Origin: an uncultured Pelagibacteraceae bacterium | Lineage (GTDB): Bacteria > Pseudomonadota > Alphaproteobacteria > Pelagibacterales > Pelagibacteraceae | Reading direction: 5' to 3' | Assembly: GCA_902523495.1 (NCBI GenBank) | Contig: CABYZU010000007.1 | Coordinates: forward strand, 1-43,181 | DNA: 43,181 nt | Shown here: positions 9,556 through 36,165 of the stretch, piece by piece | How positions within the stretch are numbered: the first letter of the stretch is position 1 | Layout: each line of letters begins with the position of its first letter | The notes under the pieces: generated by a model | The model's database searches: none | What the model was told of the DNA's origin: nothing | Seen by the model: the letters and a program-made list of their open reading frames with translations, nothing else | Position numbers and translations under genes: made by a program

Positions 9556-9559
9556 TATA

Positions 9560-9617
9560 TTCCTTTTTTAGTGCTTTTACTTTTGTAAGGCGCACAATAT
9601 AGTTCAAATGCCTACCG
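9560..9617 (-). promoter_or_regulatory. SAM-V riboswitch of metY
   Basis: Reading the minus strand from 9617: P1 is GTA-GGC paired with GCC-T-TAC (one bulged T), enclosing ATTTGAACTATATTGTGC; the loop GTGC then pairs with GCAC a few bases downstream, giving an H-type pseudoknot. The 3' strand runs directly into AAAAAAGGA, the ribosome binding site of metY, so SAM binding should hide it. This agrees with the published description of SAM-V RNAs in marine bacteria, as I recall it. Confidence 0.85.
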
Positions 9618-9630
9618 AATTTGTATGATA

Positions 9631-15360: not shown

Positions 15361-15657
15361 TTAAAAATCCTTAAAATAAGGCTTAATGGCTGCTTTTTCA
15401 GATTTAAGTAATTTAAGCTTTTGCTTGATTCCACCTCTTCCTGAGTATCCTCCAAGAGCTCCATCTGATCTAATCACTCTATGACAGGGTATTCTTGGTG
15501 CATATGGGTTATTAGCGCAAGCGTTAGCGACAGCACGAGCTGATCTAGGGCTTTTTATGCTAATAGCTACTTGTTTATAGGTTTTTACTTTACCTTTAGG
15601 GATGGTTCTAAGATATTTCCAAACTTTTAATTGAAATTTAGTACCTTTGAGAATCAT
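15361..15657 (-). CDS. short MGMT-family protein (O6-alkylguanine alkyltransferase C-terminal domain)
   Basis: Transfers alkyl groups from O6-alkylguanine to its own cysteine, or binds such lesions. From the ATG at 15657 the product is 98 residues: only the DNA-binding/active-site domain, without the N-terminal domain of Ogt/Ada. The active-site PCHRV is intact, with Cys rather than the Trp of alkyltransferase-like proteins; I-P-x-G-K-V-K-T-Y, SPRSARAVANACANNPYAPR and GGYSGRGGIKQK are also typical. The frame stays open to a GTG at 15717, but those 20 residues run towards the GC-rich patch upstream and look non-native. Whether the short form repairs DNA is not known from sequence. Confidence 0.85.
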   Translation of the reverse strand: MILKGTKFQLKVWKYLRTIPKGKVKTYKQVAISIKSPRSARAVANACANNPYAPRIPCHRVIRSDGALGGYSGRGGIKQKLKLLKSEKAAIKPYFKDF

Positions 15658-15704
15658 GAGTGAAAAACACCTGTTTCCTTGCACTTTTAAGGGTGCAAAG
15701 AACA

Positions 15705-15838
15705 GTTGTTTTGGCACGTCGTTGATGCGCTACCGCCATGCCTCCCGCTCCACATGTTCAGCGATGCTTTGTGAAGCTTTCTGCCCCCTGGAATTGTACC
15801 TCTCGGCTTTTCTCCAGTTGGCCAGTTAAGAGTTGCCT
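15705..15838. other. GC-rich patch of foreign composition
   Basis: Bases 15721-15840 contain 65 G or C in 120 (about 54%), against roughly 25-30% around them. The patch begins just beyond a hairpin (TTGCAC at 15699-15694 and GTGCAA at 15685-15680, read on the minus strand) and ends abruptly at AGTTGCCTCTTAATTC. It has short open frames on both strands but each is interrupted or lacks family features; a minus-strand frame reads through one stop into the MGMT frame. It has no resemblance to an rRNA, tRNA, tmRNA or RNase P RNA that I can recognise. Likely a recently acquired fragment. Confidence 0.6.
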
Positions 15839-15938
15839 CTTAATTCACTAACAATCTAACAAATACTGATTTTAAAATGTATCACTTTTTAGGTGATTCT
15901 ATTATTTTTCTCATTTCCTTGTGAATAGTGGGGATAAA

Positions 15939-16115
15939 TCAGGTTTTAAAAAGCAATATAAAATAGCTAAATAAAAACAAAATGGCCATTATGCTTAAAA
16001 AAATTGTATTAATACTTTTACCAGTATTTCTATATTGAATGAAACTCAAAATAATAAAACCAATTGAGCTAATCAAAAACCATACAGCAGGAATTTCACC
16101 ATCAATTGAACCCAT
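15939..16115 (-). CDS. small membrane protein, two predicted transmembrane helices
   Basis: A 58-residue hydrophobic protein from the ATG at 16115 (a GTG at 16151 would add 12 residues). It has an N-terminal MGSIDGEIPAVWF segment, a first helix of about 18 residues (LISSIGFIILSFIQY), a short basic loop YRNTGKS, and a second helix of about 20 residues ending FILLFKT. Both helices are of membrane-spanning length and the loop has the positive charge expected inside the cell. I do not recognise a named family. It lies alone between the GC-rich patch and the divergent recombinase. The coding call rests on the helix-loop-helix pattern only. Confidence 0.5.
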   Translation of the reverse strand: MGSIDGEIPAVWFLISSIGFIILSFIQYRNTGKSINTIFLSIMAILFLFSYFILLFKT

Positions 16116-16196
16116 AAATTTATAATTTAAACTATTGACATTATAAATCACTTGATATATTACTAACGATAATTAATTGTTATCAATAGTAATTAT

Positions 16197-17150
16197 ATGA
16201 CTGTACTAACTACAAACCTAAAATTGCTTCATGAGGCAACTTTAAATAATCTCAAAAGCTCTAAAGCGAAGAATACTCTAAGAGCTTATAAATCAGACTT
16301 TAAAGATTTTGGGGCTTTTTGTGCTAAGCACGGTTTAAATTCTTTGCCTTCAGAGCCTAAAATAGTTTCTTTATACCTTACTCACCTTTCTAAAAATTCG
16401 AAAATAAGCACCTTAAGAAGAAGGTTGGTATCAATTAGCATGGTTCATAAATTAAAAGGGCATTATTTAGATACAAAACATCCAATCATTGTTGAAAACT
16501 TAATGGGAATAAGAAGGGTAAAAGGCAGCATTCAAAAAGCAAAAAAACCTATATTAATCAATCATTTAAAATCTATAATTAATATAATTGATGAACAAAA
16601 AATTAAGGATATTAAGAAGTTTAGGGATAAGTCAATAATATTAGTTGGATTTGGTGGTGGTTTTAGACGAACAGAGCTTATTTCAATTGATCATGAAGAT
16701 TTAGAATTTGTACCTGAGGGGCTCAAAATCACTATTAAAAAATCAAAAACTGATCAATTCGGTGAAGGGATGATTAAAGGTCTACCCTATTTTACTAATG
16801 AAACTTATTGTCCAATTGTTAATCTTAAAAAATGGCTAGAAATTTCTAAAATTAAATCTGGACCTATTTTTAGAAGATTTTCTAAAAGTTTATCTCTAAC
16901 AGAGAAAAGATTAACCGACCAATCAGTAGTTTTATTAATAAAAGAATATCTGAGTTTAGCAGGGATTGAGAATAAAAATTTTGCAGGTCATAGTTTAAGA
17001 TCAGGTTTTGCAACTGTTGCTGCAGAGTCTGGTGCTGATGAACGTAGTATAATGGCAATGACTGGTCACAAAACAACGCAAATGGTCAGAAGATACATAA
17101 GAGAAGCAAATATTTTTAAAAACAATGCATTAAATAAAGTTAAAATATAG
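16197..17150 (+). CDS. tyrosine recombinase / phage-type integrase
   Basis: Site-specific DNA recombinase, 317 residues. The N-terminal third is a SAM-like core-binding domain (N-T-L-R-A-Y-K-S-D-F-K-D-F near residues 27-39). The catalytic domain carries all expected residues: Arg in GFRRTEL near 155, the beta-strand Lys in KSKTDQ, HSLRSGFATVAAESG (His and second Arg), GHKTTQM (second His) and the nucleophile Tyr300 in RRYIREA. It appears complete and active. It is of the phage/plasmid type rather than XerC/XerD, which are shorter and more conserved. It stands at the edge of the glycan cluster and converges on it with one spare base. No matching attachment-site repeat is evident. Confidence 0.9.
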   Translation: MTVLTTNLKLLHEATLNNLKSSKAKNTLRAYKSDFKDFGAFCAKHGLNSLPSEPKIVSLYLTHLSKNSKISTLRRRLVSISMVHKLKGHYLDTKHPIIVENLMGIRRVKGSIQKAKKPILINHLKSIINIIDEQKIKDIKKFRDKSIILVGFGGGFRRTELISIDHEDLEFVPEGLKITIKKSKTDQFGEGMIKGLPYFTNETYCPIVNLKKWLEISKIKSGPIFRRFSKSLSLTEKRLTDQSVVLLIKEYLSLAGIENKNFAGHSLRSGFATVAAESGADERSIMAMTGHKTTQMVRRYIREANIFKNNALNKVKI

Positions 17151-17151
17151 G

Positions 17152-18033
17152 TTAATACATAAGTTTATATGTATGTGATAAATATAAAAATATTGAAATA
17201 ATTCTCAAAAAATTTTTAAATGATTTTTCAAATCTTAGTAATAATAAATTTACTAAAAATCTTTGAAAATAATCAAAAAAATTAACAAGTATTTTTCTAT
17301 ATAAATTTAAAAAATTAGTTTTTTTTTTATAATATATATATTCAGAAACTTTATGAATTATTGACAATTTGCAGCTTTGCAAAAAGGAGTTGTCTGCAGA
17401 AAGTCCTTGCAAATGTATCATTTTTGACTCAGGTATTTCTATAATTGACTTATTTTTTTCTAAAGTTTTGTCACATATATCATTATCCTCGAAATACATG
17501 AATAAATCTTTGTCAAAGCCCCCTATTTTATCAAAAAAATCTTTTTTAATTAAAAAGGCACAACCTACTACAAATTGGTAGCAGGTATTTCCCTCAGCTT
17601 TTTGATTATTTAAAATATTTTTTTTACTTATCTTTTCTTTATTTATATAAGAAAGACTTCCATTACTTCTTCTATTATTATTATTATCGTACAAGGAAGG
17701 AGCTAAAATGCCGACATTTTCATAATTAAAATAAGAATTATATAAAATTTTAATAGACTTACTTTCAACTAAAATATCTGGATTTAAAATAAGAATAAAT
17801 GGTGTTTTGCTTTCTGATACACCTAAATTATTACCCTTGCCATATCCTAAATTCTTTTTTGTTTTTATATACTTTATGTTTTTAACCCCTTTCACTAGTA
17901 AACGAATTTCATCAGATTTTGAATTGTCTACAATAATTGTTTTAAATTTACTAATTTCAGATAAATTTTTTTTGATCAGTTTGTAACTATTAAAGCAAAC
18001 TATTATGAGTGTTATGTCATTGTATATACTCAT
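17152..18033 (-). CDS. family 2 glycosyltransferase
   Basis: Transfers a sugar from a nucleotide-sugar donor, probably in surface-glycan synthesis. 293 residues. GT-A fold motifs: TLIIVCFNSY near residue 8, IIVDNSKSDE near 33, NLGYGKGNNLG near 61-71, and LILNPDI, the metal-binding (DxD-like) site, near 80. The G-G-F-D-K-D-L-F-M-Y-F-E-D-N-D block near residues 172-186 is the acceptor/catalytic region seen in rhamnosyltransferase-like GT2 proteins. The C-terminal 70 residues are hydrophobic and basic, probably for membrane attachment. Last gene of a minus-strand chain of overlapping glycan genes; it overlaps the upstream one by 4 bases. Confidence 0.88.
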   Translation of the reverse strand: MSIYNDITLIIVCFNSYKLIKKNLSEISKFKTIIVDNSKSDEIRLLVKGVKNIKYIKTKKNLGYGKGNNLGVSESKTPFILILNPDILVESKSIKILYNSYFNYENVGILAPSLYDNNNNRRSNGSLSYINKEKISKKNILNNQKAEGNTCYQFVVGCAFLIKKDFFDKIGGFDKDLFMYFEDNDICDKTLEKNKSIIEIPESKMIHLQGLSADNSFLQSCKLSIIHKVSEYIYYKKKTNFLNLYRKILVNFFDYFQRFLVNLLLLRFEKSFKNFLRIISIFLYLSHTYKLMY

Positions 18034-19037
18034 TTATTATAAAATAAATTAAACCAACTTTTTTTTACCTTATTAAAATGATATTTTTTTGAACTGTTAA
18101 TGGAATTATTTATGTATTTCTTTTTTAAAAGCTGATTTTTATTCAACAATTCTAAAATTTTAATTGATAAAGAACTGTAATTTTTTACAATTATACCATT
18201 ATAATTATTTTTGATTATATCCTTTAATGCAGTTTTGCCGAAAGTTATAACTGGTAAACCACATGCATTAGCCTCGATTGCATTAAGACAAAAAGTTTCA
18301 TCATATCCAAGACATATCATACCCAGTGATGTTTTATATGTTTTTATTAACACATCCTTTTTAACCCTTCCTAAAAAAATTATATTATATTTATTGTAAT
18401 AATTTTTTAAATTTCTAAATTTACTTTTATCAATACCAAAAATAAATAATTTGGTTTTTTTATTCTTTGGATAAATAAAATTTACCCACATATTTAAAGT
18501 CTCTTTTAGACCTCTTTCTCTCTGTACTGACCATATAAAATTGTTTTTCCTTTTATAATTACATTTGTTAATAATGAATTTATTCGACAAAAAATTGGGT
18601 ATGATGACCTTTTTGTTAAAAAAGTATAAGTTTGAAGTTTTCCTTTCAAGATATTTACTTACAAAAACCGCAGTTATTTTATTTTTTAGAATTGACAATA
18701 ATTTTTTTTTTCTCAAAGCTTTTTCAATTGCTAAAGTATTATGCATCCATAATATTTTTTTTGAATTTCTGAACAAATCAAAAATATTTGGATCATTTGA
18801 GCTTACTATATAGTCGAAATTATAATTATGACTTTCTCTATATAACTTAAATATTGGAAGATTTATTAAATTTTTTTTCTTAAATTCTTTATTGCAGTAT
18901 GTAGCAAGATATATTGTATTGTTAGAATTAGACAAATATTTAGTCAACTCTAAATTCAAGCTTTCTATACCTCCTAATGATTTTATATTTTTTGATTGCA
19001 AACTAAATTTGAAGGGACAATAAAATAAGATATTCAT
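18030..19037 (-). CDS. family 4 (group 1) glycosyltransferase
   Basis: Retaining GT-B glycosyltransferase of 335 residues. The N-terminal domain has the LGGIESLNLELTKYL acceptor-side loop near residues 22-36. The C-terminal domain has a donor-binding region beginning IIFLGRVKKDVL and the E-x7-E signature in DETFCLNAIEANACGLPVIT near residues 255-274. GT4 enzymes act on lipid-linked or nascent glycans at the inner membrane. It overlaps its neighbours by 4 bases on both sides (ATGA junctions), so it is part of one transcript with the adjoining GT2 genes. The sugar specificity cannot be read from sequence. Confidence 0.9.
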   Translation of the reverse strand: MNILFYCPFKFSLQSKNIKSLGGIESLNLELTKYLSNSNNTIYLATYCNKEFKKKNLINLPIFKLYRESHNYNFDYIVSSNDPNIFDLFRNSKKILWMHNTLAIEKALRKKKLLSILKNKITAVFVSKYLERKTSNLYFFNKKVIIPNFLSNKFIINKCNYKRKNNFIWSVQRERGLKETLNMWVNFIYPKNKKTKLFIFGIDKSKFRNLKNYYNKYNIIFLGRVKKDVLIKTYKTSLGMICLGYDETFCLNAIEANACGLPVITFGKTALKDIIKNNYNGIIVKNYSSLSIKILELLNKNQLLKKKYINNSINSSKKYHFNKVKKSWFNLFYNK

Positions 19038-19915
19038 TTAGTGCCTTTTGAAATAATCTTATAATAATAAAACGCTATTTTATCCTTCAAAAGATCAAAA
19101 TAAAAAAGAGCCCCTTTTTTTGGGTCCGATAAATTATCATTATGAATATAATGTGATTTAAGATAGTGTTTTTTAAAGAACCTTATAGAAAATCCCCACT
19201 TTAATAAAAAGATTTTATTTGCTCTTGATCCTTGATTTTTTTTAAATTCACTATTTTTCTTTTTTCTTATTGTTACAGAACCAAAATGATAAACTCTTGA
19301 TTGATTTAGGCATTTAAAAATTCGGACACCTTTATTCCATAATTTCAGATTTAAATCTGGATCTGAACCAGCTCCTGGTGAAAATTCCTCACTAAAACCA
19401 CCAACTTCCTTCCATAAATCTTTATGTATTAGATGTGGAGCCCAAGTAGAACCATCAAAATCAGGATGTTTTAATTTTTTATAATTTTCTAAGAGGTATT
19501 TTTCGTCAAAATTATCAATTGTATCGCCAGCATTTAAATTTAAATGTCCGTTTAATTTTGGATCTCCATTTATCATTATACTTGATAAATAAAATTTTTT
19601 TGTCCTAAGCTCTTGAACTTTTTCGATTAGGATTCTATCCCAATTAGGCAGATAGTACATGTCATCATGAGAATAAAGAATTAGATCAAATTTACTTTTT
19701 TTGGAGATTATATTGCATCCTGAACACAAGCCTATATTTGTTTTTGAGTGTGTAAATTTTATAGTCGTGTCTTCCAAATATTTAATTGTTCCATCACTTC
19801 CCTCATTTATATGTACTAAAATCTCATTTTTATAAAAAGAATTTTTATTTATACTTTCTATACATTTTCTTAAATATAATAAATTATTATAAGTAGGTAT
19901 AACAATCGAAATCAT
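19034..19915 (-). CDS. family 2 glycosyltransferase
   Basis: 293 residues with a GT-A fold: ISIVIPTYNN at residues 2-11, HINEGSDGT near 55-63, NIGLCSGCN near 80-88, and an SHDDMYYLPNW metal site near residues 102-112. The GGFSEEFSPGAGSDPDLNLK block near 190-209 provides the expected acidic catalytic region. It differs enough from the GT2 at 17152-18033 to be a separate enzyme rather than a recent duplicate. It lies between an FkbM methyltransferase and a GT4 gene with 4-base overlaps at each side. Probably adds one residue of the same surface glycan. Confidence 0.88.
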   Translation of the reverse strand: MISIVIPTYNNLLYLRKCIESINKNSFYKNEILVHINEGSDGTIKYLEDTTIKFTHSKTNIGLCSGCNIISKKSKFDLILYSHDDMYYLPNWDRILIEKVQELRTKKFYLSSIMINGDPKLNGHLNLNAGDTIDNFDEKYLLENYKKLKHPDFDGSTWAPHLIHKDLWKEVGGFSEEFSPGAGSDPDLNLKLWNKGVRIFKCLNQSRVYHFGSVTIRKKKNSEFKKNQGSRANKIFLLKWGFSIRFFKKHYLKSHYIHNDNLSDPKKGALFYFDLLKDKIAFYYYKIISKGTK

Positions 19916-36083: not shown

Positions 36084-36165
36084 AAAATAATGAAATAGAT
36101 AATAAACGTTTAATAGACTATTTTATGGTTGAATTAAATAATTATAATAATAAAACCTTGCAAAC

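Follow-up and report, generated by a model that had tools for sequence, protein, structure and literature searches.

IMES-2 (RF02035) is an already known RNA family, reportedly given its name in 2009 by a study of marine metagenomes in Nature and said there to be abundant in seawater RNA. Two other catalogued RNAs lie closest to it. 6S RNA (RF00013) is a stand-alone small RNA gene, as IMES-2 also appears to be, but differs from it in architecture, 6S RNA being one long hairpin with a central bubble, and in having no match in the 197 genomes of the family Pelagibacteraceae (SAR11) that we sampled. IMES-1 RNA (RF02034) shares the name series; it was rejected as an identity for the RNA described here because none of the 197 genomes holds it above cut-off, a single weak match (E 4.5e-4) being the most that was seen. 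The giant squid genome report places IMES-2 among non-metazoan families that also occur in marine metagenomes and are possibly contamination (PMC6962438). No stated function for IMES-2 was found in the accessible portions of the literature searched, and those of PMC2704228, PMC2864753, PMC5069720, PMC3840354, PMC13414033, PMC6429828 and PMC2864571 hold no mention of it that we found.

Identity of the GC-rich patch

We analysed a 43,181-nucleotide stretch of DNA from an uncultured Pelagibacteraceae bacterium, referred to here as the window. Its GC content is 27.5%, in line with the AT-rich surroundings described in a sequence-only reading, and recounting the patch which that reading had singled out gave exactly its figure of 65 G or C among 120 bases at 15721–15840. 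Of all 120-base stretches in the window, the one beginning at 15713 has the most G and C (67 of 120). The next non-overlapping stretches, at 36156 (over tRNA-Ser) and 15432 (in the MGMT gene), reach 59, which is also the top value in 200 mononucleotide shuffles of the window. The edges of the patch are sharp, as that reading had it, and coincide with a minus-strand match to RF02035 at 15711–15850; the bounds it had drawn, 15705–15838, locate the patch but miss the ends of the match by 6 and 12 bases.

The patch is almost certainly an IMES-2 noncoding RNA gene. The match is full length (model positions 1–141) and scores 145.3 bits in cmscan against a gathering threshold of 54.7 (E 6e-38), and our own model, R1, gives this copy 142.4 bits, its alignment including that copy. 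The copy spans the whole model of 141 positions and follows its structure line, with four positions flagged outside standard pairs, and none of the features that we saw lies outside the range of the family. Folded by itself, the RNA reaches −47 kcal/mol (z −3.07). It is the only copy in the window's own genome, which is 75.6% complete. The sequence-only reading had recognised no RNA gene here and offered an unknown structured RNA as one option: the RNA is structured, but it is catalogued. That reading would have counted a conserved SAR11 gene of equal composition as a refutation, and the patch in effect turned out to be one, in the form of an RNA gene. Taken alone, the window thus has an ordinary answer, a known RNA gene.

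A coding reading was rejected: the Shine–Dalgarno-like GGGAGG and the AUG of the window's copy are not kept, many other copies having GGUUCGG where this one has GGCAUGG. The patch is unlikely to be an assembly artefact, because each of the 13 same-genus loci read for context has the RNA flanked by the same two genes, integrase and MGMT. Elsewhere in the window lies a SAM-V riboswitch aptamer (9557–9622, minus strand, 72 bits); PMC2704228 lists a SAM-II/SAM-V riboswitch for Pelagibacter.

Fold and loop–loop contact

Four helices make up the RNA, all read on the minus strand. P1 (15826–15843) carries a GCAA tetraloop, and P2 (15781–15825), which has internal loops, a GAGA tetraloop; both follow the Rfam structure line. 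P3 (15747–15777) and P4 (15713–15742) present loops with the contiguous cores CGCU (15760–15763) and AGCG (15728–15731), respectively, which are the two halves of a putative kissing helix. We tested the Rfam structure with this loop–loop helix added, on 58 of 60 distinct sequences aligned by MAFFT without a structure reference (L058, which has N, and L065, which is cut, were left out); the loop pairing was picked from these same sequences.

Across the alignment, 93.0% of 2,585 cells are paired and 33 of 45 pairs change on both sides. P1 is paired in 100% of cells, with changes on both sides at four of its seven pairs. The corresponding fractions are 95.1% and 94.2% for P2, 87.6% and 82.8% for the stem columns of P3, and 87.4% for P4, in which one pair of columns (124–143) never forms a standard pair. 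The covariation score is 0.488 against a shuffled mean of 0.196; none of 500 shuffles was as high on any of five fold measures, and sliding the partner columns by 1 to 3 destroyed the signal. The predicted four-helix fold of IMES-2 hence covaries, and the structure and covariation check that the sequence-only reading had called for bears out its suspicion of a structured RNA on 58 sequences.

Hairpins 3 and 4 very probably meet in a loop–loop kissing contact, judging by how their loops vary together. The six pairs of this helix are paired in 97.7% of cells, and at two of them both partners vary, in 10 and 17 of the 58 sequences. The central 4-mers are fully complementary in 51 sequences, 14 of which have 4-mers that are not self-complementary (GCAC/GTGC in 9, GTGC/GCAC in 2, GTTC/GAAC in 2 and GAAC/GTTC in 1). 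The conserved contact is therefore that of loop 3 with loop 4, and not of loop 3 with loop 3; the 4-mers do not speak against a loop 3–loop 4 contact between two molecules. The clade of the window (TCGC/GCGC, six sequences) breaks kissing pair 92–133 and retains four contiguous pairs and an outer A–U, and one further sequence breaks the same pair. Rfam-type models are not known to carry pseudoknots, so the lack of a kissing pair in the printed RF02035 structure does not mark the contact as new.

Upstream element, putative promoter and predicted terminator

Most copies share a common anatomy consisting of a tandem upstream element, a core promoter box, the four helices and a terminator. The upstream element has the form TTATYMACA-NN-ATYMACA, which resembles two tandem DnaA boxes. 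In the window it reads TTATCCCCA-CT-ATTCACA (15920–15937, minus strand), its first box differing from a perfect one by a single base. By eye, the element is present in all four genomic contexts described below. At least 14 of its 16 positions are matched in 160 of 188 distinct upstream regions, compared with 0.4% of 3,760 shuffles, the consensus having been drawn from the same 188 regions, many of them from close relatives. The set also includes one probable chimera (L270, below), four regions with odd spacings and six in which no core box is recognised, namely that of L270 and those of five g9 copies, which have a different box. The distance from the tandem element to the core box is 21–23 in 60 regions and 29–33 in 118, two classes that are about one helical turn apart.

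The putative core promoter box, defined by conserved columns across copies, is CACCTAAAAAGTGAT in the window (15881–15895, minus strand). The search demanded its G, G, A and T; among columns that were left free, C at −8 is found in 182 of 182 stretches and T at 3 in 179. The box has one exact match in the window, where 1.81 matches are expected by chance with one mismatch allowed. A putative −10-like element (15854–15863, minus strand) is assigned from its place after the core box, in a region where T at column 29 occurs in 176 of the 182 stretches with the box. At the other end, a predicted intrinsic terminator hairpin (15663–15712, minus strand; U tract 15663–15667) folds with −20.2 kcal/mol (z −4.38). 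A scripted rule finds a terminator-like 3′ hairpin in 63 of 70 loci, which include the same-genome pairs L001/L032 and L019/L034 and exclude L051 as too short; by eye the seven failures keep the hairpin with a broken U tract. A simple consensus scan of the window listed neither this promoter, its −10-like element included, nor the terminator.

Exact-pattern searches of 12 genomes for the core box and 20 for the tandem element did not show the IMES-2 promoter to be shared by any other gene. A core-box regulon was rejected: the exact box has 17 matches, five of them at IMES-2 promoters; none of the remaining 12 has IMES-2 within the 110 bases inspected, and several of these look coding-like by eye. 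Wider use of the tandem box was likewise rejected, with 39 exact matches, 34 of them elsewhere than at IMES-2, against 20 for a reversed control; the exact pattern recovers 5 of the 11 IMES-2 promoters of carriers among those genomes. As to use of the same box at replication origins, six genomes (G003, G009, G017, G022, G043 and G078) show by eye no obvious cluster of the perfect TTATCCACA, which occurs in them less often than its reversed control (58 versus 97 in total). Because the perfect TTATCCACA is rare and without an obvious cluster, the likeness to DnaA boxes is a resemblance only, and that DnaA acts at the tandem element is possible but doubtful.

Distribution

IMES-2 is widespread in Pelagibacteraceae and patchy within it. 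The RF02035 search was positive in 134 of the 197 family genomes, with one copy each and 12 of 14 genera represented; restricting the set to completeness of 90% or more and contamination of 5% or less gives 44 of 77. The same search left 63 genomes without a match and, since it is missing there, IMES-2 is dispensable in them. Searches at family, order and class level used strict filters that lose weak matches. Under these filters our own model, at E up to 0.05, matched 140 of 297 genomes in an order-level draw, all of them Pelagibacteraceae, the other 157 having no match; in a class-level draw that held few family members 3 of 385 matched, again all Pelagibacteraceae. No match outside the family was found in either draw. 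A sequence-pattern scan of named genomes returned at least 119 stretches, and the 80 titles among the matches listed are all Pelagibacteraceae, Pelagibacter or Pelagibacterales.

Model R1 found no divergent homologue at nine MGMT loci of genomes lacking IMES-2, and 15 mnmA loci yielded nothing beyond the copy already known in G018. Phages gave no match in 50,697 records. The pattern used on the named genomes gave one match in viral contigs, IMG/VR contig L270. Besides a clamp loader of the Gp44 type (PF21328), this contig encodes a D12 class adenine methyltransferase (PF02086), whose frame passes into the IMES-2 sequence (about 2043–2149) at the contig end, at a palindrome that the RNA also has. 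The contig is probably a chimeric assembly and, less probably, a case of phage capture.

Gene neighbourhoods

We tabulated the context of 44 of 71 loci. Thirteen of them, the same-genus ones, have the RNA between a divergent integrase gene and MGMT, and in 21 it comes after mnmA. In three it stands beside SelO without the later genes, six have another gene set and one is at a contig end. The names mnmA and SelO are backed by Pfam for one protein each. Since it occurs in four different gene contexts, IMES-2 would be a stand-alone gene, and on this comparison of loci we have little doubt that it is; for the same reason the adjoining MGMT and integrase genes are incidental.

In the window these neighbours, all outside the RNA, are a short MGMT-type protein (15361–15657, minus strand; PF01035, E 6.4e-32), a tyrosine recombinase (16197–17150, plus strand; PF00589, E 1.1e-18) and, between the recombinase and the RNA, a 70-residue open reading frame (15939–16151, minus strand) for which Pfam gave no match within an E limit of 0.01. 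Relatives hold similar frames which, by eye, directly precede MGMT in some genomes that lack the RNA. Beyond the integrase, 16197–19915 includes glycosyltransferase genes (PF00535, PF00534) that vary from one same-genus locus to another, while little changes on the MGMT side, and the RNA lies near the edge of the variable region.

These arrangements bear on two local explanations, both of which we regard as very improbable. One is that the RNA is a cis-regulatory leader or attenuator of MGMT, which in this genus lies on the same strand with its start codon just past the terminator U tract. A conserved same-strand downstream gene, as expected of a leader or riboswitch, is however lacking: there are four contexts, MGMT adjoins the RNA in only 13 of 44 loci, and at the mnmA loci the first downstream gene is on the opposite strand in 19 of 21 (of the other two, one ends and one has a different frame). 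MGMT is moreover kept in all nine RNA-less genomes searched. The other, put forward by the sequence-only reading, is that the patch is a fragment derived from recombination or else what is left of an integration site of the neighbouring integrase. A tyrosine recombinase gene does adjoin the RNA, and in three RNA-less relatives (G003, G088 and G105) integrase, small frame and MGMT follow in a row by eye with no RNA between. These same three genomes can equally be held against a remnant, as they have the integrase without the RNA. The covarying fold, the conserved upstream region and the usual terminator also count against it, the integrase cluster was met only at the 13 MGMT loci, and no flanking direct repeats of at least 10 bases occur within 15600–16200. 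In five other RNA-less relatives a different frame precedes MGMT by eye; eight of the nine RNA-less MGMT loci were inspected, L082 (G026) being left out.

The history of presence and absence was followed on an MnmA tree of 15 genomes. G003, which has the matching site without the RNA, is sister to G097, which has it, with support of 100/100, and two changes are the fewest that the well-supported branches allow. Presence is not clustered beyond chance on this tree (147 of 500 shuffles as low), and the tree does not tell gains from losses.

Possible mode of action

We lean towards a reading in which IMES-2 is a stand-alone gene for a trans-acting, protein-binding RNA. A DNA-binding activator, DnaA being the obvious candidate, would sit on the tandem element, and the core box and −10 would drive transcription of a transcript of about 188 nt that folds into a compact body. 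Judging from this architecture, the RNA would act in trans as binding partner or scaffold of a protein or ribonucleoprotein, and neither by Hfq-assisted base pairing nor by control of MGMT. For the protein-binding mode by itself, which we read from sequence comparison, we see an even chance.

Two other trans-acting roles have to be weighed against this. In very probably having a gene of its own, with conserved sequence upstream and a terminator that ends in a U tail, IMES-2 is like many small RNAs, and it might base-pair with mRNAs in trans as an antisense RNA working without Hfq. Hfq (PF17209) was found in none of the 197 family genomes, the window's own (75.6% complete) included, by a search that was positive in 5 of 14 controls, and Hfq-dependent antisense action is unlikely for that reason. 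Nor is there a long conserved unpaired seed: 15 of 27 invariant columns fall in helices or kissing pairs and, outside the kissing loops, the longest contiguous invariant unpaired run is three A. We therefore consider antisense action improbable. Less probable still is a functional replacement of 6S RNA that binds RNA polymerase. It would fit the distribution of RF00013, which was found in none of the 197 genomes, again with the window's own included, compared with 5 of 14 controls (Caulobacter among them, four of the five over cut-off); Rfam models found no 6S RNA in the window either. Several short hairpins and a kissing contact are, however, unlike the single long hairpin of 6S RNA with its central bubble, and 63 of the 197 genomes have neither RNA by these searches. 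A compact, trans-acting, protein-binding RNA is favoured because neither Hfq nor 6S RNA was found in the 197 genomes.

A bolder proposal, in which DnaA governs the transcription of IMES-2 through the tandem box and the RNA, as a global regulator, takes on part of what 6S and Hfq-type RNAs do elsewhere, neither having been detected in SAR11 here, is in our view a long shot; if true, DnaA-tied transcription would link IMES-2 to replication state or growth. SAR11 are among the most abundant bacteria of the sea, and the question of what IMES-2 does there becomes directly testable, direct tests being enabled by its placement in Pelagibacteraceae, the outline of its promoter and terminator, the predicted loop–loop contact, and sister genomes with and without the RNA.
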